DNA of 64,000 nucleotides from Antedon bifida (lineage: Eukaryota; Echinodermata; Crinoidea; Comatulida; Antedonidae). The stretch is taken from the NCBI GenBank assembly GCA_963402885.1, contig OY727094.1, positions 36,396,501 to 36,460,500 on the forward strand. The letters are read 5' to 3'. Shown here piece after piece: positions 3,301 to 62,830 of this stretch. The position numbers and the translations under genes are program-made. The notes beneath the pieces are model-generated. The model was not told the origin of the DNA. It saw only the letters and a list, made by a program, of their open reading frames with translations, and searched no databases. Positions within the stretch are counted from its first letter, which is position 1; each line of letters opens with the position of its first letter.

Positions 3301-6300
3301 TTTGTATAAAATTACCGTTTCCTCATCTACCGTCTCGAAGTAAAAGCTAGCTAATATATTTAACATAGCAACAGAATAAAAAGATTTTATAATATATCTT
3401 GACAAATGATGGTGAGTGTTTTCTTTTCATCTAACCTGGGATAGAAATAGCCTGTAGTATATTTTTGTAGGTTAACAACAACAATAAGCTGTGATTTTTA
3501 ATATCAAAACATAACAATAATCTGGGAAAAGTATCTAGAGAAATTTTGTGAACATTTCCATCAGAGCATATAGAGAGGAAAGGAGTTGTGGCTTGGTGGT
3601 TACGATGCTTGGCTACCAATACCTATGTTCAAGTCCTGTCCTGTCATGATTTTTTCTAATGATAATTTACAACTCACAAAGACTTGTAATAAGACTTTGT
3701 TTATTTATGTAGAGCATCTTGTTTATACGTTTGTCTTATGAACAAGATTGCCACCTTTAGTGAATGATTTCGCTTATGGCTATCCTTGGTAATTTGTCTA
3801 AATATAGAAAAAAAAATTAGTTGACATTGTACGTACCCTGAATTCATATTCCATGCCTGGTTTTAGGGAGTCAATTGTTGCTTCTTGTACCTCTCTGTTG
3901 ATTGGACTCTGAGTGTAATATTTGCTTTTCTCAATTGTTTCAGAGCTTGCACGGTAACAGACCTCGTAATCCAAGATCTGCCCATTTGGAAATTCAGGCA
4001 GATCCCAACGTAACACAACACTATCTTGAGAAACTTGCTTGATTTCAAAGTTCTTCACAGCAGATGGTACTGATTTTGATAAAAAATAAAAACCAACAAT
4101 ATAAATTACAATGTGCACAGATTTCAGCTATGAGACAAGTCATTCTTTGGAAGACAGTTAAATATATCAGGGCTGTAGCCAACAGTACGGTTGGTAAGTT
4201 TTCAACCCTAACAACTTTTTCACTTTGGCAACCCAGTGGCTTGAACAGAGATTGTTCCCTTTTTTTGCGAAACCCGGCCCACTTTATTTCTCGTGGCTAT
4301 ATCTCTGTACATTCAAATGTAACATCATTTACATCAATAGGTTATAAATAATACAGGTCAGAACATTATTTGTTACAGTTTGATATGTTGTACTGAAACC
4401 TATGTATGGCTAATGGTAATAATGTCAGAAAGAAATGGATAATCAGGTTTGTGTTTTACCATAATCATTCAATTTTAATTCTAAAAAACATTTTTATTCT
4501 AGATATCATAATAATAAAATTCAATTAGATTAACCTTTAAATGTAAAAAAACCTATAAATTTGATCAAAATGTCCATATTCATAAGAATATTTATAGGTA
4601 TCAGATTCCATAATTAAAAATGATAGGAGCCTAATGCATGCAACGAGGTGTGAAAAAATGACCTGAAGAAATGTGTATGACCTGTGCAATGGACAGTATC
4701 CATCTGCCATTAGTTACTCAATATAGACACTAATGTACATTTATGGACACACTAGATAAACACAATATAACTATTATGATTTGTTAAACGAGCAGGCTGA
4801 CAGGTCAGTGATTAATTGATCAGAAATTATTTGACAATTAAATCCTTTTATAGATTCTTGTGGACATACCATTTAAGCTTACACATTACTTTGAAATTTA
4901 TTAAGACATTTGATTTGTGAAAAAATGTATTTATAGTGCTTGAGATCTCTGAACAAATATTTCATTGCTGAAAATATTTCTCCTTTCAATAAAAAAAACT
5001 TTTAGGTTGTTATATAATATATGATGATTCATGTATTCTATTTCTCAGAAAATGTTATTGTTTACTGTATATCGTTCATAAAAGTCACGGGGAAACATTT
5101 AATAGTAATGAAGCATGCTGGTAGCAAAATCCCATGTCATCAAACTAAAATTCATATTTGAAAAAGGGGTTTTACTGTATAGTACAAGGTTGAATGCTGG
5201 GGCCTATGTACAAGAAAACAATTTAACAAAAATTAAATTATCTAATGATTGACAATACCTGAAGAGAATGTTGAAGCATTTGTAACAGCGTAGCTGGCAT
5301 CTCCATCACTGTACTTAGAAACTGCATTTTGTGAATAGATGAAAAATGAATACTGAGTGTATGAAGCCAAACGGCTCACGTTAACCTCATTGGAGAGCAG
5401 GTCTGACCAGCTTGGTGAAAAGTGGACATCTTTAGGGCAACGTGGACATGTTATAGAGTATTTGGTATCAGAGCGCCCTCCAGTTTCGCTTGGGCGTTCC
5501 CACGATAATGTGATTACAGACGTTTCCTTGTTGACCTTTGCTTGAAGATTTTTTGGTGGTCCTGGGGGAGCTGATATAAGAAATAACATTCATAAAGTCA
5601 GATACATTGAAGACATTATATCAAATCAAAAGAATCAAAGTTCAAAATGTTGTATCATGACTTTATATAGTTTCAACAATCTGATACAAAATCAATCTGA
5701 GAGAAGTAAAATATTAGCTTAGAGCATTGACGTATTAAGACCCATTGGCCTGAAACAAAATGCACACAGAAATGTAACTTAAGGCAACTGTGATTGATGA
5801 TACATTTTCTAAAAATTTGTAAAGTAAATGTCAGGTCATCAGATAAACAAACATGTGTCAACATTGATTAGTTAACTTAGTCTTTTTGAACATTAATTTC
5901 ATGATAGGGTAACATTACATGTAAATGTTAAACTAAATACTGAAAAGGCTAAATACACACATCTGCAGATACCCTAGGCAACATTCAGATTAGCTATCCA
6001 TTAAACACAAACAACACTGAAGACATTTGATGAAAATATTTAGTTAAGAAAATGAAACATGTTATATAAACTGCAGTGACAAAAAAAACCCACTTTATTA
6101 TACATTTTGTTACTGTACTACTTAATTTGATTTACAAAAAATGTAGACAAATTTAAGATCAGGTTAAAAACATTTCCCAATATACTTTGAAATATATATA
6201 TATATATATATATATCAACCTTACATTTTTATTTTTGATTTAAATGAGAAAGAACATTTTAAATCACTGAATTTATTTGAATTTAAACAACATTATTTGT

Positions 6301-9300
6301 GATACTATTAGAAGCTCTGTTTTGTATTCCCAGTACTCGGATAAATGATGCCAGACAAAAACAGAAATAGTCAGAATTAGAAAGTATGCTGTGAGTCAGA
6401 ATAACAAGTGGTTGGTATTTGATGGATTAAATGCATAAACATACTGATTAAATTATAGAAATTGAGAATAAAAGATTACTATAGTTCAAGAAAAAGTTTA
6501 AATTTGATTGTTTTGTCCTTGATTGGATTTTTGCATTCCATTAAAATAATTATTGTAATAAATTAAGCAAATTCTGGAAAAAAGGGTAGATATTCAATTC
6601 AATTTACATTATTTCATCCTCAATAAAAAGGAAATATACTTTTAGTGTATTTCATAGAATATAAAAATATATAAAACATATATGATTAGTCTTACCTGTA
6701 CAGGCTTTAGATGGTGGTTCTGATTCTGTTCTGTAATAACCAGCGATACACGTGCATGACGTCGTCCTGTTATGATCGGCATGGCTCTTAGCTGGACAAG
6801 GAGAACATGGTCCATTTCCAATCTCAGATTTATATGTTCCAATAGGGCAAGCTGCAATAAGAGAATAAACAGTGAATAAATAATATAATACCAAATCCAT
6901 CAATAAATCAGAATAAATTTAGCACAAATTAACTGTTGTTATGTATTTCAAAAATCATATAAATATTTAATATTAAAATAATAAAAAATTCATGAAGAAA
7001 TATACATTGTATAATCATTTCCACTAAAAATGCCATCATATACATGCCTTGAATTTTAACTTAGGAAAATACAGTGTGAAATTAAATGAAAAGTAGTATG
7101 CTGCCCTCTATAAGTCCTACTAACTTGACGCAAGTTGAAGGAGGCCCAACTTGTTTTTCTCTAAATCCATTGAATGAAACTCCCTTAGATATCACAAGTT
7201 TATTTCATATCAATTGAATTACAAAAGAATCATGTCATACACTTGAAAGTAAATTAGTAATATTTCAAATTGACTAATAAATTATTCCAGATTCATCGAT
7301 GGTAAGGTTTATTACTTGCAATTAAATTACTTAATGTTTCCAACATTCAATGCTTAGCACATTACTACAACATTCAATGCCTTAGTACATTACTACAAAG
7401 CCAGGCACATCAGGAATGGAGTACTTTTAGAATAATTGATACTCAGAAACATGTTTAAATTGATAAAACCTTGGATATAAAGGTAAGGAACATCATTAGC
7501 AAAAAAATTCCTACTGTGTTTATTATCATACCCTTAATCATACTTGACTAGCCTTGATGTAGGCAGTACTCAGCAAAGCTATAAGACACTGTAAACAAGC
7601 TAAAGTACATAATACATTGTGGTGCTGACACAGACTGATAAATATGAAGCTAAAAGCAATTCTAGAATTAACATTTCCAGGAAACTTAAAGAAGATGAAA
7701 TGACAAAAAGTAGAAGACTTTAAAAAGCATTTACAATAAGATTCTATGCATAATCAAAGAACAACATATTATTGCTTTTAGTAGAAATAATTACACATCA
7801 CCAACTTAGAAGAAGCTCATCCCACAGAATGGGATTATGTATGATTTTACTTAATCAAAAATAAATATTTCATTTATTACATAATGTATGAGGCCTATTC
7901 ATTTCAAAACTGTTCATACATTTTGCAACATTAATTATTTATTAATAATTCATTAAAAAATGTTATAAATATTTTATTTTATGTTTTTTCGTTTGCAATT
8001 GCCATAAATTCATCTATTTATTTATAACCTATTAAATGCTTTATAACATATTTATGTAAATAAATCCACTATTAAATAACTTCTTCTTTCAATGACGGGT
8101 AACTTACTTTAAGGAACATAACGTCTAATAGAATTAATCTCTCCAAGTAATAAAGACATAAAATTTATCAATTAATCTGGAAAACCTCATAAAGAAAACA
8201 GTCAATAGGCATTACCTGCATGAGTCAGGTACTGTGGAATGAACGTCACAGCATGTGTGTAGTTTATAATTAAAATGTTTCCAGTTTAGGCCTGGTTAAA
8301 TAATTTGAAATATAAACATGAACAAACAGACAAATAAATATAAAACATAAATGTCCTTAGTATAGTAATATAGTTTTATATATGTGCCTTTAAAACAAGA
8401 ACCTATGTTAACTTAATGCTGAATGTCAAAAGATAACAGAATTACCTTTTGTAATCTATCTTACTCTATTTCATACATATGATTTGTCATTTCAAGTTTA
8501 GTGATACTAATTTATTCAGTAAAAAGTAGAATACAAATCCGGAATCATTTTAACGATGCCATATTAATCAAAAATTTAAAATCCATAATTTACTGATGAT
8601 CTTTCAACATATGTAAATTGTGTAAATGGAAAGGTCACTATTTATATCCTTGTTGTGTTTGGCACTATGTGTTGGTTAGAGAGAAAAACTTTGTCATCAG
8701 AGCTAGGCTTGTGGGGCTTATTTACCATCAATGCAAAATTGGAGAATCATTTGAACCCTTTAACTTCTTGGTTACAGGCTTATTATTTCCTTTTAGGTAA
8801 ACTTGTAGACTGTAGGATTAGATTATTGTTTTTACGTCAATTACAGTACACAGTATTGGATATCTAAGTGAAATTGGAAAGGTGATAGTGTAAAATTATC
8901 TTCTACAGTCTTTAACAAAAAGCAATAAAAATGAAATTTCCAAAACATGTTTAAAAAATATAAAAAAACTTGAGGATCATGACTGATTTGAGAATACTGG
9001 TCTAGAGTAGTAGCATTCTAAGTACATCAGAAATTTGAGATTACTAAATTTGGCTGAATTTCTTTTCTAAAATTACAAATTTGAATCTTAAGCAACCTAA
9101 TGTTAAGAATGTTCATCTCATAAAGAATATCAAATGTAACATTCTGTCAGAAAAGGTTGCTAAGTTAACAAAGCTTAAGCTAGTGAAATTCAATCTTGAA
9201 AAATGAGAAATTTCTTCAGTTCAGGTCAAGATGGACAATTTACACGCCAGATGGTGGAGCATAAAATTAATTAGGTACCATTTTTCATTATATAAAACAT

Positions 9301-21300: not shown

Positions 21301-24300
21301 TTGGAATTATATTGAGAATGGGCCACAAAGAGGTTAATCAATAATTCTCTTTCTCTAATTAAACATGGCATATTAAGTAAAAGAATGTTCCTAAAGGGAT
21401 TTGTCTTTTAGGTTTGTGAATTTTAATTTGAATTGATTAAAAATAAAGAGTAATTTTGAAAAAAACCAAAAAAATAAATATCAATATCATAATTTGTTTT
21501 CAGTAAACAGGGATGAACAAATTCAAAACAAATCTTTCAAATGTACATTGATTAGAAAGTTAAAGCAAGATTTCCCATGGATGATGGTGTGAGCTTGTTT
21601 AATGAAAGTTAAGAACTTAAATGCATTCAGTGCACACATAAAAAGCAAAAGCAAATCTTTTGATAGCTTGGAAGAACATACTACATCAACAATACTATAA
21701 ACTGGATTTGTTTTTCTAAAAATGAAATGTATCAGAGATTTCAAACACCTAGGCATGAGTGCTCTTGATTAAACTTGCACCTGCGAAGTAGCCCTTTCAC
21801 CCACACAACATCAATTGTACAATATAGAGGTAATGATCTCCTATCTACGTCATTAACTATCGACAAAATATCTTTTTATTTCCAACTCATTATGTCTCGA
21901 CTTTTCATTCTTCACGTTATAAAAATCAGACCACTGACGATTGAATATCGTAGAATTTTCTCAAGTTTCAGATTCACGACTACTGTAGAATCATCTTCTG
22001 CAACAGATACGTACATTTGATATCAGATGAACTAGATAATAAAACTCTTTTCATAAACTATCTTTTGTTATAGTAACTTTTTTTTGTTGGTGTCATAAGA
22101 TCTATAAACTTTATATAATGCTGGTGTACATTGCCTGTTGTGTTAGATATCAACATTATTAGGTTACTGAACCTTAATAAATGTTGTTACTTTACACAAG
22201 TAATCTGGTAATTAAAGATCGTGATCATCATCATCTATTAAAGTAGTAGTTTACAAAACGCATTGAGATGGCAAGTGAACAGGGTATAGGCTTGCAGGTA
22301 CACAATCAATTTCACTATAATTTCAATCTATTTTGATTATCTTGATAATCTACAGTACACTGAAACTTTGTTATACTTTAATTCATTAGTAGTTTTAGAA
22401 TCTTTTGTTTTATGTGGTTTGAGGCAAAACACACAAAAACAGGACAGGACATATCAAACGCATATTTGTAGTGTGCAGTTTTTATGTGAATTATTAGTAT
22501 CTTAAAGCTTCTTGTAATGTCATAGTAAGACAAGAATTGTTATTAGTTAGTGCATCTTATTGAGATACATCAAATATCAAATTTTACTTCCTAAATACAA
22601 TTATTGTTAATAAACAAAAATGTTTGGATTTGCCTAATATTAATTAATTTCATTTTACTGAATATGAGTGTTATGAGAGTTGTTATGTCCATGAATTATT
22701 GAATCCTGTTGAGTCCTGTCGTCTATTAGATAAATGTATCAAACATCACTTTATCAGAAATGTTTTCAAAATCTAAATATGAATGCACTTTCCTGAAACA
22801 ACTTACGGAATGAGCCTTTATTGATACAACTGTAAAATTAATTGTAATGTACAGGCAAATTTATTTGTTATCTATGAATAAATATTTAGTATTAAGATTA
22901 AAACTGAACAGCTGCCTATGATTACCTATATCAACAACTGTAGCTGAAAGTTTAGCATCCAGCCAAAGAAAAATAACAGTATTGTCCAAAAATATAATTT
23001 GGTTATAGTAAACACTTCCATTTTACAAGGACACCCTGTTATACAGTTTGTACAAAAATGGGTAATTCTTAAAAATAACAGATGTGTGATCTCTGGTTAC
23101 ATCCTAGAATTGATTAGTTTTATGTGAAATTTGGTAAATGGCTCAGGATTTCTATACTAGTGTTATAATGCCTCCTAGGCAATGCTTGATGTGGGTTTGA
23201 GCAAAGTACATTGATACAATATTGGATTTATTTAACACAGCCTTGAGGATCTTGCTTATATGCTGGCCTGGTAAACAAAGCTATACTTGTACTTTCTTTT
23301 ATTTATGGTTTATTGACCTAAAAAGAAGGGTTGATATTGCTTTATTATTAACTCAATTAAAATTCATTTAAAGCAGAATTTTTTTTAAATATCAAAATTC
23401 TTTATTAAATAACAGACCACCTACAGTATATCAGATATCTATAAATCACACTTTCAAATTTTTTCTATTTTTAGCTACGATATTGTTGATGGTTTATACT
23501 AGAATTATTCTATTTTTATTTTATGCATTTATTTAATTAATTTGAATCATAATTATTACCAAAGAGAAATAATAAAATGATTACATAAATTTGGTTAATG
23601 AGAAATATAAGAAGTCCATAAGTCTAGACTGTAACTTATTTGAATACCAGTAAGTGATCAGTTCAGTTAGCAGACCTCTGATTGGACCTTAGTATTGACA
23701 ACTTAAGAACCTCATAAGTTCACTCCATCAGAGTTTGAGTTGCATGACATTATTTGTGTATCAACACAGGATTTCCACAATTAGTTAAAATGTCAATCAT
23801 ATATAGTTATACTTTGCACAAACTATCTTCAATCTATAGCAAACATATCAGGTTTCTACCACCTGAGATAATTACCACATGTGACATTGACATTTCATCA
23901 AGAAACGTCAATGTGATCTTGCACGCAAAAAAAAAAACCACTCACCGATCCATGACTCAATATTCTTTGGGGGCACAGAGATGCCCTCAAGGCTCCCCAG
24001 CTGACAGAGTCAATACGAATACTCAATGTAATACTTAATCCAATACTCTATGCACCGTATGCAATAATGTGTGTACTTTAAGTTATCACAGTAGTGCCTT
24101 CTATCATTTGATAATCAGATGCAAACATTATATTAAGGATTCAATTTAATGATAATTAAATAATAAACAATGGATAAGTTATTGTATTCATGAAATAAAT
24201 GTGGTACATTTGTGAGAACACCACTTTAAAAAAGGAAACAATATATTGCATCTTTTGAATAGGATTTATATACAGTTAAATCGATAGCATATTGGAACAA

Positions 24301-27300
24301 GTTGGCCATTCATAATAACCATGGCAACAATGAAATTAGCTTTAAGGCAAATCCAATTCATATTATTCTGCATAACTGAAAATGAAGATGATTTCATAGT
24401 GAAATATGCTTGGTCAAATGTGACAGTAAATTACATAAACAAAATCTTAATTTTGATAAACAAATGAAGACAATTATATTAATGTTAAAGTCAGCATCAG
24501 AGAAGTTTTTAATTTTGATAAACAAATGAAGACAATTATATTAATGTTAAAGTCAGCATCAGAGAAGTTTTAAATAATAATATAATATAATATATATATA
24601 AGATTTTAATGTCAAGAAAGTAGATGAGTGATAAGTTTGTATTCAGTGTTTCTTTCTACAGTTTAACAAATTCTAGTGCAATTTATGGTCAATCTATGGT
24701 AAATATAGCAGACCATGTAGTTTTGGTCCACTTGAGGGTGTGGTAACATTTATGGAGAGGTGTGTTCAATGAATTTGTATCAAGTCATATTTTGTTTTTT
24801 AGGAGAATAGGCTATTATTGGTTTATCCAAGTAAGCTAGGATATAAAATAAGACTAAAAATTCAAATTGTTATTTCATAAAATATTAAGTAAAACAAGTT
24901 ATCAACACTATTAAACATAGTTTGTCATAATAATAACAATTCATTAATAATATATTTATGCATAGAGAAAGAATGACAAGAGACAGTTACTAGTATAAAT
25001 TCCTTATAGCGCCAATGTTATTCATACATATTACATTCTTATTGTTCCTTAATCACTCCTTAACAAATCAAAGAGTCTTCTGACAATTTTGATGGACATA
25101 CTATTATTAGTTTCAAACGATTAATAGCAATCACATGACTAACAATAAATGATGAAAGTCAATGATGGTTTATAGCGCAAACTATAATTAAAAAATGGTC
25201 TTTGCACTTTTAAAAAATTCATGGAACGACGCTTTTCTTGCCAGGCACATCGCATAAAATACGAAATGACAGGAAATAATATTACTAATCCTAAAATTAA
25301 CGTTTTGTCGTTGATATTATCCTCCGACATCAATGTGTGCCGACTCTGTTTTAGCAGTAGTTGTTGAAATCCCTGGTGAAAACCCTCATTAATGTTGAAC
25401 TCAAAGTGTTGTAAATGATATTAATAATTCATTTTGCATAGTGTCGTAATAGTAGAGTTATGGTGAAATGGTTTGAGCAAAGTGCATTCACAGCACGTTG
25501 CTCTTCGCTCACATGTCTAATTATCATTGCACACAAGAGATCTAATTATATATTCAGGTTTTTTGTTAGAAATTGGAACACCCCAAAAATTAAAGGATGC
25601 AAGTCAAAGCGGTTTCTAAATAACTTCCTGTTTTCAAGCAATAAGTATGTACTTAACTAGAATACCAAGAAGAGGATCCATTTCTAATCATGGTTTAAAA
25701 CATAAGCAGAACATAGACCCCAGAGACACAGTGGAATTAAGCTAAATGCACAATATGAAAACGTTTATTTCACTAATTACAAGTAAATAAATTTACTTTA
25801 TCTTAATATTTTCTTATTTTTTCTTTTATGACTCTTTTTTATGCGACAATTTAAATTATCCATTGATTAAAATTCTGTCTAACTATAAATTATTCAATTA
25901 TTACATAATAAAATATATTGTCATCTTGTAATAATACTGGTAATAAATGTTGTCAAAGGTGACTGTACTTTTTATTGATTAACAAGCTATACAGAAATGC
26001 TATAATTATTCTAGCAGAAAAAAACAAGCTCTAAAAAAAGGAAATTAAATTAGATGGACTGGCTAAATATTATAACCTTGAAATTGAATACTAAACACCA
26101 ATCTTCTTCAACAGGGTGACCAGTAGTTTGTATGTATCACTGTGTTATAATTAATACCTGAATCCTAAAGCGATGTTTGTAACAAACTGAAGCTTGTCCA
26201 CAATTGTCTCACACGTTGCATTCTTATTACACATTTCACAAGACTAAAATGCGTTAAACGTCTTAAAATATTCAGATTTGCATCGCATCTGTCTTCCGAT
26301 TACCTGCATATATTAATTTCCTCTTCCCAGGTGGCTTAGTCAGGTTGTTTTATCCAAACTATTAATATTAATTTATTTCACGATATTACTTGATCATTTA
26401 CAGTCTTACTGGTTAGCTGGTAAAAGTCCTCAGAGAATATGGAGAATGGAAAGGAAATCTCCCAGCTTAGATATCCAGGATAAAGAATGTACTAAATAGA
26501 GATGAAAGGATTTAACTAAAGAAATATGATACTGTGCTGGTTATTAATATTCATACAATGTTTCTAACAATAAGATTAGGAGGAAAAAAAATGTGTTGTT
26601 AAAAAAAACAAGTTTTGACAATTGTTACAAAAACACAATAAATCCAAGTTATTATAAATATGTTATTATGTTATTTTAAACACATATGAAAATGGAAGAA
26701 GGTATCCTTAATGGATCAAGTCTAGCATGATGTCAGAACACTATTAGTTGACTCGATGCTATCTGTATCGATCCAATCTCTACAGCGATTGCTTTAAGTC
26801 TGTAAAGCACAGCAATTCTAGAAAGATGTCATGAACATTGTCATTGATTTTGATCAACTGAACACACCTGTTTGTAAATCAGAATGTTTCAGAGATGTGT
26901 CCTTTTAAATCAACTCAAAATGAGATTTCTACTTAAATGTTATGTTAGTATAATAAACAGTAGGATTACTATACAAAACAAATCTTTATTGATATCCGTT
27001 CCTTTGTAAATTGTAAGGAACGTCATTGGCTAGTCTGGGCAATTATATAACAGACAATGTTGCTACTTTCAATATAAATATTCCTATATAATTATTTTCT
27101 AATCGTTTTACTTCCAAGGATAAATAATAAATAAAATTGTTTATTTTTATTTGGAATGAACGTTAGTGTTTTAGTTGCATTTTATACAATGTAATATTGT
27201 GCCACTTATTGGGTTCTAAAAATAAAAACAAACCATCCTGTGACTGTATAACCCATGGTTAGCAATCAAATGACAGGCACATACTCAATATCATATAAGG

Positions 27301-45300: not shown

Positions 45301-48300
45301 TTACCAAACGTTTTTAAATTAACCAATTCTTTGATATTGATATCAAAACTGGTTAGTACAAACATTCAGTTAACCATGAAAAACACTTCAAAATAATTGT
45401 TTAAGATTTCCATGCGAGTTGGTATGTTAAAAAGAGTGTTGTATGGGCTCAACAGGTTTTCAGGAGCTCTATTACAAAAGGTGTTCGCTTTAGAAGTTCT
45501 TGTTATTAGTAAAGTATGATCTCAGTGGTATACAGGGACCAGTTAACAAAGAGGTTTGACATCGATAGGAGCAATTGAGAAGCATATTCATTCAAACATG
45601 ATTACTTCCAGTCATTGATCTTCTTAATATGAAATAATCAGACTGAATACTCAAGCTCACATTATCCCTGCTTCATTAACTCTCACCTGCATTCACTCAA
45701 AAGAAAACGTGGCGATAAATTCATTGAGAATTCAGCCAGTCCTAATGTGGTACAAAGAGGTAGTTATACTGACATCAGCTGACCAATGATATGTAACTAA
45801 TTTATGTAAACATCATGACAAGTTAAGAAAATATATTATATTTGTAGTTGTAGCCTACATCACACATTGTTGGTAGAAATTGTAAAATGGACGAGCGAAT
45901 AGAGACAACTCAATGTTCTGTGGTAACCAACTGGAAAATCATGCACGGGGACAACAAGCAGAGCCAATGTCATCTCCATCAATCAACGACCATGGCAGGC
46001 ATCATAACAAACAATGATATAATAAGTGAATTTGATCAAACGTCCAAATTGGTGTCTAAATTACAATATTGGTTTTTTAATCACGGTTGATTTAATATCC
46101 AAATTTCAGCTTTTGATAGAAATTTCACTTTGCATTCCAAAGTTAAATGCCATTACAACCTATAAACAGGTATGATTGAAAAAAAAGAGACAAGCAAATC
46201 AGGGAGTTGTAAAAAAATAGCAATCTTATTTTACAACTCCCTGAGCCAATGAGCAGAAAAATGTTTTGGAAAAAGTACTAGGAACCAACTAATATTACAA
46301 ATAAGTTCTATTAAGCAGGATATGATATTAAATGCGGTTTCACAATTACAGTACTTAAACCATGAAGGTAAAAATAAACAGTGCAATGCTAAAATCTTAC
46401 CTTCACATGCAGCATAGTTCTCAGTCTGATAGTAACCTTCTGAACAAACACATTCTCCTTGGATTACAGTCCATGTACCATCACTCCGACATTGATATGT
46501 GGGATCCTGAATGCCAACCTTCTTCGAGTTTGGTACGCACTCACCTTTTGCTTCAACCAAGGAAGTAACAAAATCGCCAGTAACCGTTTCTGGGAAGTTT
46601 GCCAAGTGCATCATAACCTTAGGACAAACTAGGTAATACACAAGTGTACGTAACAAGGCCATACACGCACCCTGATCTTGCATAGCAAGATAAAATCCAT
46701 TATTTACAATTGGTCCAAATCTTTCAGTTGCTTTGTTTATGACTTCATCAGAAGACAACGGATCTGAAAATCTTCCATCAGCTGCGATTCGCGAGATCTT
46801 TTTATATGGAGGTGAAGTATACTGCGGGATATTTTCACTGGAATTGTTCACATCACTGTAATACAGGTCAAATGTTTCTCTGCATGAGACGATGTCACTG
46901 TCAGTGTCAGTTCCATCATCTTGACATGAGAACATAGTGAAATCTGTTTCTACAATTATTAAGTTCGCTCGTTTTTTCTGGATGTACGGTAAACGAATCC
47001 AATTATTTTGATTGCGTTCATGTACTTGACACACTTGAAACTTGCGTGCGTAGCTTGCACCGGTTTCTGTCCACTGAAATGAAAATTGATGTAAGTCATT
47101 AATACTGGTAAAAGACAATAAATACACACACCAATGGGTGGTGTTGGTAGTACGAGTTCAACTTATACCGACATTTGCCCTTCTCTGTGACAGAACATAC
47201 AGGTACCAGTTGAAACTCAGTACTTAAAAATGTTCTTAACTAGTGGGATAATCTCCCAACATACCACCACAATAATCATTTCTTTTTGTACTGTAAAATA
47301 GTTACATGTTACACAGTTTAGTTTATCAAATATGGGCATACTGCAAACAAAAATTAGTTTAAAAGATAAACATTATAGTATTGCATCTCAGTGTAAACCA
47401 AGAAGTTCTAAAAAAACCCATTTAAACCTATGTAAAACGTTCTTTATGATTCCTCAAGATAATAATGAATTCATGCATAGCCTAATTTCTATGTATATAT
47501 TACATTCATAAATGTATCAATATGACGAATGATAGCAAATCACATGTATGTAGTGTATATTACAAGCTATGTGTCATAACACTAGCAGTATCAATTTCAA
47601 ATTATGTTAATGTGGATTATTATTTTCAGTGTCAAAATTATAAATTAGTATTACTTAACATGCAGCATACAAACACTGAATTCACAATGGAAAGATAGAC
47701 TACAGTATTAAGCTCTGTCTACTACACTATCAAACGTTATGTGAAAAAAAGTGTGATGTGCCCAAATATGGTAGTGATATGCTTAAATATGGTAGTGATA
47801 TGACATCATCATGTCCAAATATGGGCACAACACTTTTTTTTGTCACATAAAGTTTGATAGTGTAGACAGAGCTTTGGACTACAGCAACAACCCTATATCC
47901 GTTAATAAGCTTAAATGGGACCACTCTAAGAGTAGAATTGGATGATACTGTGCAGGTGAATAGCCATTGAAACCAACAAATAAAACACCCAACTGCCAAT
48001 AATTACTATTCAGTAGAACATGTATTTATTAGAGCATCACTACTTATAGGGGTTGAATAATTAATTTGGACGTGTGATTGTGAATAGAATAAGCTGGTCA
48101 TTACACAATGTATGGATTATCTTGCATGGTGATTACCCACACTTTCTATGGAGTCCTCTATTGTACACATTTCATGGGATAAACTCTGAGGTAATAAGTA
48201 TAGGAGATGGAACCAGGTTTAGATTTAAAAAAAAACAAAACAAAAACTGCACAGTAAACAGTATGATCATTGTACTAATAAACAATTCTGGTAGTAGACC

Positions 48301-51300
48301 TACCAAACAGGATGTTGGAATTGTAGTATTCACAAAGATAGAGTATAAAGACAGTGTCAGCATTGCCAATACCTCTATTTATACAGGAAAGAGTGAATTC
48401 ACTCTTTCCTCATTTATATAAATCGTATACAGGACATAGAATTACTTAAAAGTCATTGTTTTAATCACGTATGATAAATTGGTTACGATTAAGTTTCATT
48501 AAGTGACTATTAAAGCAACCCTTCCATTAGTTATAATTATATTTCAAAAATTCTTATCTGAATAACTAATTTTTTTCAGTGAAGTGGAAAATCCAATTAA
48601 TATTTTAAAAGGCAATGAAATAATATGATTGAATCTAACATTATGTAAATGAGTTTTGTGACCCTCTCACATCAAGTTAGTTAGTCTGCTATGCAATGTT
48701 GAATCCACTCAAGTGCAACGAATACGTAGAATCGAAGCTATCTCATAATTAAATGTAGAAAAAATCAAAAGTCATTATGAAATCCATGTTGAATTTCAAG
48801 TGGGGGTAATGAGTATTAAATTGAAATAATATGGCCATCATTGATCTTGTAGTTGTTGTGTAGGAATGAAATGTTGACAGTTACATCTACTACTAGTACT
48901 AGACACTTGATGTGGGCCTTAAAATTTGGATGAAACATACTGGTTGAGTTCTTATGCATAAGGAGCTCCTTCTATGCATGTTCAAATTTCAGTTGGATAG
49001 CAGTTGATTGGAATTGTAGATGGAGTATTTAACAACGTAAGTCGTAAATGACTCATGAATCAATAACCTCTTTAAATTTATCAATATTAATCCAATTCTT
49101 GAAAATGACAAGTATCACCTCCAACAGTATCAACCTACCAAGTAACCTACTAAGTACTTATAGGCTACTGTAAGTTATGAAAAACTAAACTAAAGGCACC
49201 ATGGTACTAAAAACATATTTAATAAATGATAATGATAATATTGATATTTCTAAGCATTGGAAAAGAAGTATATTTCCACCATGTTTCAAATGCTATATAA
49301 ACTTACTTGTTACATTTAAGAATAAAATGAGATCAAGTATTCTAATTTAATTCTGTACTTAATATATTAATTACAGCAACTTATAATTATATTAATTCAG
49401 TTTCAAAGAGGCTAGTCCAAGGTACAAATAATGAACATACGTTATGTTAAATTAAATATATCATAATAAATGTTAAATAAATTATAACCCTCTGTTTGTT
49501 TCCTCCTTCCTATTTTGCAAAAAAAAAAAAAAAATTCCTGGATCCACACTGACAAATATACCATAATAAATGTAGACTATTTGAATAAAGTATTTTTCAT
49601 TGTACTAACTACAGTACTACTAGGAAAATGCAAATTAGAAATGACCATAGCCCTCTGTTTCCTCCCCTACCATATTTTGCAACATATAGGATCTACCCTG
49701 ACAATGACATATACAGTAATGACAGATCATCAAATCCAATTTATTATCATAAGATCTATCTGCAGTAACACAGTGCACCAATTTATTATACCAATAACCC
49801 AAGATTTATTGGGGATTCTGGACATAATTTTCATTATATAACTAAAGAACCCTTGCATATCAATTAGTAAGAGTGTCTAGAATGTAAAGATGGAGTCAAC
49901 ACCTAGTCTTCAATGTCAGTGCAATTAGAGGAATCCTGTATAATCATTTAATAATTATAAATGGTAGCTTCTGCTGGTTTTATAGGCCATACATTGTAAT
50001 TTACTTTAATCTAATAAATTACACTGACATTGATGAGTGTAGTAAACATGTAAGATTTGTGAGCAAATGGTTTCCACAGATATGCAGGTTTGTCAGTTGC
50101 CTTTTTGCTGGCTACAGTAGTTTAAAGGCTAACACTAGTAGCAGTTTAAATAATTATGATGGAATACAACATATTAACAACAAAATTGTGTAATGATCTA
50201 AAATTCCATTCCATCAGAGTGATAATTAATTGTATTATAAAATATTTAGAAATAGGTAAAAGGACCTCCAAATATGGTCATTTTGTTTTCTGTTTAGTTA
50301 ATGATTTACTACTGTAAAAACATTTAAAATTACCCTGTAATGATGAAACATGCAGTTTGAAGGACTGTGTGATTATCATTGATAATGAATGTACTTGCTA
50401 GTGAATGTATATACAGTACTATCAAGGAGAACATTTTATTAAAATAACATACAGTATTGTACAGGTAGTACACTTTAGAAATAGGGTTTGCACAACAAGT
50501 AATACAGATCCAATACCCATATATCTCCATTTAGTTAAACTAATTAGTGGATTAGACCTTGGAATAAGTACCCAAACATGTATGCTTATTTAGGAGATTA
50601 TGACAAGTAACCCTTGATAGGTGTTGCCTAGGATTAGTATAATCCTATAGATTATGACAAGTAACCCTTGATAGGTGTTGCCTAGGATTAGTATAATCCT
50701 ATAGATTATGACAAGTAACCCTTGATAGGTGTTACCTAGGATTAGTATAATCCTATAGATTATAACAAGTAACCCTTGATAGGTGTTGCCTAGGATTAGT
50801 ATAATCCTATAGAAGAAACTTAATCTTGAATGGTTGTATAGTTTATAGGTACTGTGTACAGGCAGAATACCTTGTGTACAGGCAGAATACCTTGTGTACA
50901 GGCAGAATACCTTGTGTACAGGCAGAATACCTTGTGTACAGGCAGAATACATTGTTTGCATGTTCAAACTGGTTGATTTATTATACTGTAGAGTGTAAGT
51001 AAAGGATACATTCTAAGATTTATGAGCTAATAGGCTAAAGACATTTCTCTAATGTTTCCTGTTTAAAAACTAATATCTAGCCCCTTGCAAATTGGTATCA
51101 GCTAGCATCTTGTATGGAAAAAACCTGATATCTACACTAGCCCATTGCAAATTGGTATCAGCTAGCATCTTGTATGGAAACATCTGGTAATACAAAATCA
51201 CTAGAATGGAAGTTCACATTTTGAGGTAGATTTGGATTTAGTTTCTACTATTAATAATACCATCACCCACTAGAGGTCATCTACCATTGGATGGTAGCAG

Positions 51301-58262: not shown

Positions 58263-60140
58263 GACAAGATTGATCAACTTCGTGGGAGGATTCATCAATG
58301 CTATAACGGTAATTGTTATTTTTAATAATATCAATAATTGAAGGTACTTATTAATTGTGCACGAAAAACAGTGCAATAATTTGTGCTTTAATAGGGTACT
58401 GGTAATCTTAAATAATAAGAATGTTTAAGTAAATGTGCCATTCATAATTAATAATGTTAATAGTTAAACAAAGTTATAGGCTCTTTTTCTGAGTAAAAGT
58501 ATAGATATCGAGCAGATTCTATACCAGGATAGAGTCATGTTTTGGCCTCCATTTTATTTGATTTTAAATCTGTTGGGTTAAATTAAAAAGATATAGTTAT
58601 GGTCAATTAATCAGTTATTAATTAATACTTACATTCAATTCAAGAAATAAGCATATCTAACCTATCATGTGGGTTTTATGGCGGCTAATTATAGTATCAG
58701 GTTATACTATACTTGACTCTAGATTCGCGACAAACTTTAAAACCTCTAAGCCCCATATACCCCTGTATGATAGATCTACTCACAAATGTAATGAATAAAG
58801 GAACAATACAAATACAAGTTATTTTTAAGAACTTACATATTTAAACGACCAATTAGGTAATAACAATAATAATTTATAACGCGCGTACGTAGTCCACAAA
58901 AGTTTACCATTTTAATTTATTTTGTTGAATGAATCCGTAAACAGACTATTGACGACAAAAGTGTGTAACGCACCATCATAGCAGCACGATGTGGAAGAAT
59001 TAATAACTAAACGAATTCCTTCATGAATACACACGGAAATCGGATAAATCACATGGGCTTAGATTCATTAGTTGTTTGTATAATCAAGTTAATCGGTTAC
59101 CGCATCGGATGCTATTTTATTACCGCTAAAGCAACTTTGTTTAAATTTAGTTGGTACTGAAAGGACGTCACGTAGGCCCTATGCGTAACGCAAATAACAT
59201 GCCAGTTTAGAGAACTTTAGATTATTCGTCGATTGACGTCGGTTTAACGTTGCGTATAGGCAGCAAGCACAGAACGTTTGTAAAACGTAATCGAAACATA
59301 AGTCCAACTAATACAGTATACCAACCACGACCAGCATCAATCACCGGTGCATCAAGAACCGATGTAACTATAACGGTCGCGTTCAAATTCGCTCGTCAAC
59401 GATCTAAAAAATCGGACGGCCAAATATTTAGATTTACCTAATTAACAAGTGGCATTATGGATAACATTATAGTTTTTAAACTGAATTAAAAAAAGCTTTT
59501 GAACACCGTTGAAGTGAACCGTAATGAATCACTCATTCATGTTTGATTATCTAAGCCTTTAATTGGTACAGATCTATTTACATACATTTTATTTACAATT
59601 GGGAGTTGTTGCTTCGCTCTTAAAATGTGGGTGACGAAACACAATATTTATTTTATCTTTTTATGTCATATTTTTATGTTTGAAAACAACCTTCATCAAA
59701 CTCGTTCCCCACGTTCGATATGGTTTACATGACAACCTTTTAAACAACATAGAACATTCTAAACGTCATGTTGATAAAACATAATGTTCTAATACATTGT
59801 TTAACATTCCGTCCCCAATATGCATTAAGAAATGGATTGTAAAGCAATTTATCAGACGTATACGCGATGGGTGTGAAAGATCGCCCAATACAGATTCATG
59901 ATTTAATACATTTACTTTTTGTTCTACTTATATTAAAAGCAATATCTCAATTGTAATGTTCTTATCTCTTTAAAAGCGACATTTATGTTCCATTGACGAG
60001 TCTTGCAAATAGTAATGAGTTTAAAGAGTAATTTTGTTTACTATATTAGGGTACGGTTAGATGCCATAGACAATCTATTTTCTTTGTTTCATGAATTCAC
60101 CATAATAAGTATTACTGTGTGTTAAGTATCCATATTTTGG

Positions 60141-60159
60141 AAACTTTCAGATTGCCACT
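60141..60159 (+). other. Probable splice acceptor and short 5' UTR of the GPCR exon
   Basis: AAACTTTCAG ends at 60150, 9 nt before the ATG. This suggests that the coding exon is joined to one or more non-coding exons upstream. Its pyrimidine tract is modest, so an unspliced 5' UTR remains possible. Confidence 0.45.
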
Positions 60160-61284
60160 ATGGACGTATCCAACAACACCACCACCATTGAATACGACCT
60201 TGATGAGTATGTTGACCTGCATTTGTATCCAGCAATGGATCATGTGATCCTTCCGGTTATCTGGCCAATCATTATCATCGCTGGACTCATCGGTAATAGT
60301 GCAACAGTCGTGGTGCTACTGCGCGTACCACAGATGAAGACACCACTGAATGTCTGCTTGATTAGCTTGGCATTTTCAGATAGCGTGTTCTTAGCGGTGG
60401 CACCAATTCCGTTTTTTAGATCATATGCAGAAAATGACCTGCACGATAGTTTTGATCAGGGCGACTTCTCGCCTTACGTTTGCAAGATTATAGTGTTTCT
60501 CATTGATTCAAGTTTCCAAATTTCTAATGTCATGATTGTGTGCGTGTCAGCAGAACGCTACTTAGCCATATGTAAGCCATTTAAGTACCGCGAGAATGGC
60601 ACGCGGAGCCGCGCCTTCAAAATATGCACCGCTGTATGGCTTACTGTCTTTGCTTACCAATCTCGTCTGCTCTTTTCTGTTTTTACTCAAACATACAATT
60701 TCTCTTGGCCTGATGGATACCGCGGTCTACCCAGCGAGACGACTTTGTGTAGTTACTGTGGTCCTAATGCTTTAGCTTGTGAGATTGTACATAAACTGTA
60801 TGTAGCTGATATTGGCGTTGGGTTGTTGATTATTGTTGGTATGGTTCCAATGTACGTACTAATGGTCATGGAACTTCGCAAATCTCCTTTCAACGAATCA
60901 AAGAATGTTGAAAACCGGATTAAAGCTGAGCGGAAGATATTTAGAACAGTGGCAGTCACAGTTTCTATATATGCCATGTGTTTCCTGCCTTACAGGTTTC
61001 TCAATCTTTTTATCATGTACTATAACGATTTTGACCAGTATAAATTCATTAAAGTTGCAAATTTAACTCGCACACCCATGTTCATTAACGCTGCAATCAA
61101 TCCGATTATTTACACCCTCACCAACAAAACATACAGAGATGCCTTCTGCTGGTACTTCAACCCTTGTGGATGCGATGTTACGGTGAAAGGATCGAGAAAA
61201 AGGGTTGACAACAATTTGAAAGTCGTATCACAAGCAGTTTCATCTACTGCAACGGCAGCATCTGTCGTATCTGAACCGTGCTAA
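60160..61284 (+). CDS. Rhodopsin-class GPCR, peptide-receptor-like, single coding exon
   Basis: A seven-transmembrane receptor of 374 residues. The N-terminus has NNT glycosylation sites (5, 6). TM1 about 28-55 holds GN (45-46); TM2 64-86 holds Asp74; Cys108 opens TM3, which ends in ERY (132-134) in place of DRY; TM4 153-175; the second outer loop has CSYC (197-200); TM5 212-238; TM6 262-287 with CFLPYR (274-279); TM7 302-322 with NPIIY (314-318). Helix 8 is followed by cysteines 330, 336 and 338, possible palmitoylation sites. ERY plus LPYR recalls thyrotropin-releasing-hormone and ecdysis-triggering-hormone type receptors, but the ligand cannot be fixed. The start has A at -3 and G at +4, with an in-frame TAA at 60106. 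The last 20 residues come from the first unit of a minisatellite. Confidence 0.93.
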   Translation: MDVSNNTTTIEYDLDEYVDLHLYPAMDHVILPVIWPIIIIAGLIGNSATVVVLLRVPQMKTPLNVCLISLAFSDSVFLAVAPIPFFRSYAENDLHDSFDQGDFSPYVCKIIVFLIDSSFQISNVMIVCVSAERYLAICKPFKYRENGTRSRAFKICTAVWLTVFAYQSRLLFSVFTQTYNFSWPDGYRGLPSETTLCSYCGPNALACEIVHKLYVADIGVGLLIIVGMVPMYVLMVMELRKSPFNESKNVENRIKAERKIFRTVAVTVSIYAMCFLPYRFLNLFIMYYNDFDQYKFIKVANLTRTPMFINAAINPIIYTLTNKTYRDAFCWYFNPCGCDVTVKGSRKRVDNNLKVVSQAVSSTATAASVVSEPC

Positions 61285-62020
61285 GTTGTATCAGAAGCAG
61301 TTTAACTGCAACAACAGTATCTGTCGTAGCTGAATTGCGTGCCAAGTTGTAATCACAAGCACTTTCTTCTACTACAACACTATCTGTCGTAACTGAACCT
61401 TGCTAAGTTGTATCACAAGCAGTTTCATCTACTGCAACGGCAGCATCTGTCGTATCTGAACCGTGTTAAGTTGTATCAGAAGCAGTGTAACTGCAACAAC
61501 AGTATCTGTCGTAGCTGAATTGCGTGCCAAGTTGTAATCACAAGCACTTTCTTCTACTACAACACTATCTGTCGTAACTGAACCTTGTTAAGTTGTATCA
61601 CAAGCAGTTTCATCTTCTGCAACAGCAGTATCTGTCGTAATTAACTGAACCTTGTTAAGTTATATCACAAGCAGTCTCGTCTTTTGTAACACAGCATTAT
61701 CTGTCGTAACTGAACTTCATCTTCTGCAACAGCAGTAGGGCCTATCTATTGTAGCTGAACTTTGCAAAGTTGTATCAGAAACAATTTCTTCTACTACAAC
61801 AGAAGCTTTTGTCGTAGCTGAAGCATGTTAAGCTGTATCACAAGCAGCTTCATCTTCTGCAACAGCAGAATTTGTCGTAACTGAACCATGCTAAGTTGTA
61901 TCACGAGCTGCAGCAGCAGAAGTATCTGTCGCAGCTAAACCTTGCTACTGTAAGTCGTATCACAAGCAGTTTCATCTCTGCAACAGCATTATTAGTCGTA
62001 ATTGAACCATGTTAAGTCGT
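61219..62020 (+). repeat. ~62-bp minisatellite that starts in the GPCR coding tail
   Basis: About 12-13 units, each with the pattern TCACAAGCAG, then TGCAACAGCAG, then ATCTGTCGTA and CTGAACC followed by a TAAG stop. The first unit is translated as the receptor C-terminus (VVSQAVSSTATAASVVSEPC). The following units lie in the 3' UTR. Left units are ordered in a ~185-bp higher-order period. Right-hand units (after about 61.7 kb) are more degenerate. Confidence 0.9.
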
Positions 62021-62238
62021 ACACTCTGGTCACGGTGATAGGCCTAGTTCATCCCTAAGCGACTGAAAGTTAAAAATTGTGTTATGTTCATACGACTGGA
62101 TTAAGTGCCAGTTCCTTGTAGTGAGTGAATGTGTTATATTTCTGCCTAAATCGAAATTGTTTCCCGAACTTTTAAATATTAGAATTATATGTATTTCTGT
62201 GCTTGTTAAAATTCAACAATTTGTTTCGTGTAGATATA

Positions 62239-62244
62239 AATAAA
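62239..62244 (+). terminator. Polyadenylation signal of the GPCR gene
   Basis: A canonical AATAAA about 955 nt after the GPCR stop codon and just beyond the minisatellite. It is the first canonical hexamer noted downstream, so it is the most likely 3' end. Confidence 0.5.
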
Positions 62245-62299
62245 TGTTAAAATATTATGTCATTGGTGATTATTTGAATTATAGTAGATGCGAAATTGT

Positions 62300-62365
62300 G
62301 AATCCGTGATACCACACGCCCATCAGCAAAAGGTCACTGGTTCGAATCCCACCAGAAACAAAATC
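62300..62365 (+). mobile_element. tRNA-like fragment with perfect B box
   Basis: GGTTCGAATCC at 62339-62349 is a perfect B box, but the T-stem bases around it do not pair fully, and no good A box or acceptor stem is present. It is best read as a SINE or tRNA remnant lying 95 bp after the GPCR polyA signal. Confidence 0.4.
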
Positions 62366-62830
62366 TATATTTTATTTTATTCAATCAAAACCAACAGCGA
62401 TAATTACTGCCCCTTAAAGGTAATTGAAATAGAATTAACTTACATGTAATTGAATTATAATTAATCTATTCCGGATAAATAAAATCTGAAATGCTTATTT
62501 TTTGTTGTTGACCAAAAAAACCTCCACTGAGTACTAAATACCTTAGTGACGTTTAAACAAATACATTGCCTTACTTATGAAACAAACTTTTAATTTAATA
62601 ATTTAATCCGGAGTCTCATCCATACAAAACTTTTCTTTCTCGGTGCCCTTTTCATCATTATGTTTAGAACAAAGAGATAAAACCTACACTCAATAAACAA
62701 TCGGATTCCATCAAAGCTAAATTGTTTATCTAACTCAGTAGGAGGAGCTAATTACTTAATTAGCCCTCAATTAGCATTTCCTGTCACCAACTTTGGTGCT
62801 TAGTGCACATAATTATTATTGTTTTGTATT

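Follow-up and report, generated by a model that had tools for sequence, protein, structure and literature searches.

A class A receptor gene of Antedon bifida whose last codons form the first unit of a minisatellite

The receptor gene and its surroundings

We analyzed a 64,000-nucleotide stretch of Antedon bifida DNA (the window), in which an unbroken open reading frame encodes a GPCR of 374 residues (Table 1). Residues 45-318 match PF00001 (7tm_1) over profile positions 1-260 of 260 in a Pfam search (4.9e-36), and the protein thus carries the rhodopsin-type seven-helix domain that marks class A GPCRs. ERY, CFLPY and NPIIY, which we take to be class A landmarks, are present in the reading frame. 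Among the best 60 of 688 PDB matches, the closest solved relatives are peptide receptors, including CCKAR, NTSR1 and NMUR2. No relatives of the receptor were found in viral contigs (one stretch fit a pattern and was unconfirmed) or in prokaryote genome contigs (13 stretches fit the pattern, all without confirmation), collections in which relatives of an animal gene would not be expected. Directly 5' of the start codon, tttcag has the appearance of an intron acceptor, which would lie in the 5' UTR. The stop codon, TAA, occupies positions 61282-61284. AATAAA and ATTAAA are absent from 61200 to 62238; if the candidate poly(A) signal that follows is used, the tandem array described below would fall in the 3' UTR.

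Several other features of the window were recorded. Downstream of the receptor gene, GGTTCGAATCCC at 62339-62350 resembles a tRNA B box and is perhaps part of a tRNA-derived SINE; ARAGORN found no tRNA gene in the window, and no Rfam family reached its gathering score there. Eph receptor domains lie on the minus strand between 3798 and 47157, with the ligand-binding and cysteine-rich domains at 46231-47157, Ephrin_rec_like at 6652-6918 and two fn3 domains at 5242-5589 and 3798-4127; they probably belong to one gene extending over at least 43 kb, and they mark the AT-rich window as animal DNA. A plus-strand open reading frame at 49488-49841 contains CFLPYHILQ, which resembles GPCR helix 6, possibly by chance; its tblastn match to the receptor was not significant (E 1.8) and it has no Pfam match. 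Two near-perfect arrays at 50590-50967 (a 54-bp unit in 4.1 copies and a 20-bp unit in 5.2 copies, both with 98% matches) leave a 125-residue open reading frame open on the minus strand. At 24447-24575, TRF reports a 62-bp unit in 2.1 copies with 98% matches, apparently a recent duplication.

Table 1. Coordinates of the receptor gene, the repeat units and the elements at the array edges
Feature	Position	Strand	Evidence
Class A GPCR coding sequence, 374 aa, unbroken ORF	60160..61284	+	ORF, Pfam
Minisatellite, 13 units, sharp edges each with AAGTCGTA	61220..62021	+	TRF, unit alignment, flank tests
Left direct repeat AAGTCGTA, 8 bp, over codons 354-356	61220..61227	+	string search
U1, codons 355-374 VVSQAVSSTATAASVVSEPC and first base of stop codon	61220..61282	+	ORF, alignment
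U2	ends 61343	+	AAGT.GTA cut
U3	ends 61404	+	AAGT.GTA cut
U4	ends 61467	+	AAGT.GTA cut
U5	ends 61528	+	AAGT.GTA cut
U6	ends 61589	+	AAGT.GTA cut
U7, 67 bp, small insertion	61590..61656	+	alignment
U8a and U8b, damaged double unit, 110 bp	61657..61766	+	alignment
U9 (ends 61829) and U10 (ends 61892), 63 bp each, open in the frame of the tail, TAA end	61767..61892	+	alignment
U11 (59 bp, ends 61951) and U12 (62 bp, ends 62013)	61893..62013	+	alignment
185-bp block, U1-U3 (63+61+61 bp)	61220..61404	+	TRF, alignment
185-bp block, second copy, U4-U6	61405..61589	+	TRF, alignment
Right direct repeat AAGTCGTA, 8 bp; first two bases finish the TAA of U12; unit homology ends	62014..62021	+	string search, flank test
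AATAAA, candidate poly(A) signal	62239..62244	+	sole AATAAA in 61200-62400

The tandem array and its edges

A preliminary description of this DNA held that the C-terminus of the receptor is the first unit of a minisatellite, and our alignment bears this out: the last 20 codons of the gene lie within U1. The 13 imperfect units stand in tandem, head-to-tail, are within the 10-100 bp of a minisatellite and resemble each other well above chance; U1 scored 83 against U5-U12, whereas 1000 shuffled versions of U1 gave a mean of 15.3 and a maximum of 26. Unit borders were set at the recurring motif AAGT.GTA, and the split between U8a and U8b was placed by us at 61714/61715. TRF found the array at 61220-61715 with a period of 63 and again at 61751-61904. 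The unit size of about 62 bp given earlier suits 9 of the 11 intact units, which measure 61-63 bp; the full range of the intact units is however 59-67 bp, one pair is damaged, and a higher-order period of 185 bp is superimposed. Three TRF periods (63, 122 and 185) start at 61220, and that of 185 extends over 61220-61675 with 94% matches and a score of 806.

Unit identity is 67-90%, except for three recent pairs at 97-98%. The two 185-bp blocks differ at 4 of 185 sites, and U1 and U4 differ at two, both third positions that are silent in the tail. The three-unit duplication appears to be recent, and the near-identity of its two copies makes copy-number variation plausible.

The array does run past the stop codon, as had been described, but its borders lie at 61220 and 62021, and the flanks are no more unit-like than shuffled sequence. 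The score of the 63 bp to the left was equalled by 939 of 1000 shuffles, that of the 63 bp to the right by 666 of 1000 and that of the 129 bp to the right by 905 of 1000; in these comparisons no degenerate units were seen beyond the edges. Both edges carry the 8-mer AAGTCGTA, which occurs five times in the window (three times inside the array, twice elsewhere) versus a chance mean of 1.07. Of the 11 surviving starts of later units only that of U12 reads AAGTCGTA, and the other 10 read differently. The length of the array equals whole units plus 8 bp, which is the remainder expected for birth between 8-bp direct repeats. By our arithmetic, about 9 in 63 random phases would leave a remainder of no more than 8 bp, so the argument from phase is worth about 1 in 7. 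Elsewhere in the window the unit consensus has a single exact 16-bp match (21991-22006, E 0.001), which may be due to chance, and no other match at E <= 0.1.

Reading frames, composition and the origin of the array

The preliminary description had most later units end in the same stop codon as the receptor. Of the 12 unit ends that survive, 9 indeed have TAA, or 8 of 11 when the later units are taken alone, but it is absent from U2, U5 and U8b, and the end of U8a is lost; a stop in each unit was an overstatement. The whole 63-nucleotide frame of the tail is kept in 3 of the 12 later units, U4, U9 and U10, which read VVSQAVSSTATAASVVSEPC, VVSETISSTTTEAFVVAEAC and AVSQAASSSATAEFVVTEPC, respectively, each followed by a stop. 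The remaining 9 have frame-shifting breaks or lengths. With stops and frame-shifting indels after U1, the array does not have the single stop-free frame of a coding tandem repeat. The minimum numbers of substitutions at codon positions 1, 2 and 3 were 20, 13 and 14, respectively, counted in 10 of the 13 units (U4-U6 were omitted as recent copies) and only in columns with a U1 base. The lack of a third-position excess gives no sign of coding constraint across the array as a whole and, together with the frame-shifting indels, makes the later units unlike former coding repeats.

The GC content of the array past the stop is 0.405, compared with 0.420 in the coding sequence, 0.316 in the following 3' UTR and 0.304 in the window. 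None of 1098 overlapping non-coding 739-bp segments reached 0.405 (the highest was 0.402), a comparison that overstates independence because the array repeats a single unit; on the scale of a unit, 449 of 5750 non-coding 63-mers reached the GC of the consensus. The non-coding segments overlap, exclude 3700-7000, 46200-47200 and 60100-62060, and may contain unrecognised exons. With a codon model built from codons 1-353 of the receptor itself, the score of the consensus in the receptor frame was reached by 430 of 8213 overlapping non-coding 63-mers (best of six frames), and that of U1 by 31 of 8213, as expected for a unit that is coding now. A frame on the reverse strand outscores the coding frame in the consensus (3.1 vs. 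2.9), U9 (2.1 vs. 1.3) and U10 (6.2 vs. 3.7); in U1 the same frame scores 5.8 and the coding frame 6.7.

We consider it probable that the tail came first and that the array arose by tandem duplication of the end of the receptor gene. The sharp edges, AAGTCGTA at both of them, the geometry of whole units with an 8-bp remainder and a composition close to that of the CDS favour this order, for which they are modest evidence. The ancestral gene would have had one copy of the tail codons, the stop codon and the first UTR bases, with AAGTCGTA on either side, on the left over codons 354-356 and on the right beginning in the stop codon. These two copies of the 8-mer would have bounded the founding segment, and slippage or unequal exchange between such short repeats could have produced a second copy. 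Later exchange would have enlarged the array to 13 units, including the recent 185-bp duplication of three units. Because the copied segment brings its own stop, translation would end in U1 and the later copies would have turned into freely evolving 3' UTR. Exchange within the array would then change mainly the UTR length and the tail residues, and the stop would usually stay near its old place.

The opposite order had been suggested in the preliminary description, in which the tail arose from the repeat or was captured by it. In this order, a minisatellite already existing in the 3' UTR would have supplied the new tail from its first unit once a frameshift had occurred or an upstream stop had been lost. 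U1 is in frame and at the edge of the array, the receptor frame stays open through 20 codons of the consensus unit (fairly often so by chance), and the codon score of the unit is not unique to the coding frame, all of which suit this order. However, the edges share not only their phase but also an 8-mer spanning the junction of codons 354 and 355, the composition is CDS-like and the 63 bp preceding the array have no trace of a unit. These points favour the tail as the earlier element, although not decisively, and we regard a prior array as unlikely.

Two further explanations fit either direction, and their probabilities are therefore not shares of one whole with that of an original tail. The near-identity of the two 185-bp blocks might point to an assembly error in the duplication or in part of the array, but 4 sites distinguish the blocks, and there is an array even when they are set aside, which leaves such an error quite improbable. 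Very improbable, too, is the case that transcripts splice out the array or end before it, so that the genomic tail and the array are unused by the cell: a donor-like GTAAGT is present at 61950, close to the array end, but no exact GTRAGT (the only donor pattern searched) occurs on the plus strand from 60160 to 61949, the poly(A) hexamers are missing between 61200 and 62238, and the reading frame is unbroken up to its stop. The least probable origin is a long former tail of 21-residue repeats in which a stop arose and spread by exchange, since the length of U1, a multiple of three, and the frames of U4, U9 and U10 are outweighed by the frame-shifting units, the lack of a third-position excess and the TAA at most unit ends.

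Predicted effects of changes in the array

What would deletions within the array do to the receptor? We modelled in-register deletions that join U1 to a later unit (12 units x 82 alignment columns = 984 joins), counted per alignment column, gap columns included, and unweighted. The 82 joins to U4 always restore the present tail, and those to U5 and U6 nearly repeat those to U2 and U3. A 20-residue tail resulted from 432 of the 984 joins and a tail of 13-26 residues from 809. The 175 joins outside this range comprised 53 shorter and 122 longer products, with extremes of 6 and 47 residues; tails joined to U8b or U11 are commonly some 16-21 residues longer, and joins to U2 or U5 can shorten the tail to 6. 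As the stop stays nearby in most modelled deletions, the UTR length and the tail sequence would be affected more than the tail length. Of the instability that had been proposed for the array, copy-number variation is plausible from the 185-bp blocks; the tail length would be less unstable than had been suggested, since a stop comes with most units, although the 175 joins mentioned would take it outside 13-26 residues.

The tail has 7 Ser/Thr in 20 residues, so the phosphosites suggested earlier are possible, but the pattern is unremarkable. Using arrestin-type patterns of Ser/Thr spacing (phosphocodes), we counted 3 matches in the tail versus a shuffle mean of 1.07, and 9.8% of 5000 shuffles reached 3. 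The consensus has 3 such patterns, U9 has 4 and U10 has none. The phosphosite signal in the tail thus appears weak. RNA structure in a transcript of the array was considered and rejected; folding was no better than that of shuffled sequences (z -0.08), 10 of 20 of which folded at least as well.

It could also be imagined that the array is a store of spare receptor tails. Exchange of U1 with stop-bearing units would swap the last 20 residues and keep the stop, so that the arrestin-facing tail would vary fast from one individual to the next, and a runaway frame would be a limited risk. If this idea were true, the recent 185-bp block, whose start is the coding tail, would record an exchange of U1 of this kind; we think the idea very doubtful.

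Comparison with known systems

A tandem repeat is known in another GPCR gene, DRD4, whose exon 3 VNTR is entirely coding and belongs to a cytoplasmic loop. The VNTR of SLC6A3, which encodes the dopamine transporter, is not known to include the coding tail or the stop, and the repeats of CEL are C-terminal and translated in series. The present array shares with DRD4 the location of a repeat within a GPCR gene, and differs from it in being neither loop-located nor fully coding. As with the 3' UTR VNTR of SLC6A3 (PMC8096271), a signalling gene has a tandem array in its 3' UTR, but here unit 1 is coding. Like the coding VNTR of CEL (PMC8692231), it shapes the C-terminus of a protein, but here translation ends in unit 1.

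In the models of Haber and Louis and of Taylor and Breden (slipped-strand) for minisatellite birth, as outlined in PMC3389668, a segment between direct repeats of 5-10 bp duplicates and expands. The receptor array resembles these models in that a short direct repeat within this size range, AAGTCGTA at 61220 and 62014, lies at both ends and would have bounded the founding segment. It is unlike the cases of those models in that this segment would extend past the end of a reading frame, and a fresh copy would bring a stop. Among the literature matches listed, no title or abstract opening described a stop-bearing unit common to a GPCR tail and its own 3' UTR, which is no proof of absence.

This locus offers a readable case of a minisatellite seemingly born from the end of a gene, in which most copies have a stop. 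If orthologues agree, it would indicate that the tail of a receptor can reside in unstable DNA while its length is buffered, and would show a route from coding sequence to 3' UTR. The array is best explained by a known process, the founding of a minisatellite between short direct repeats, of which it would be a new instance; its twist, neat but modest, is that it straddles a stop codon.
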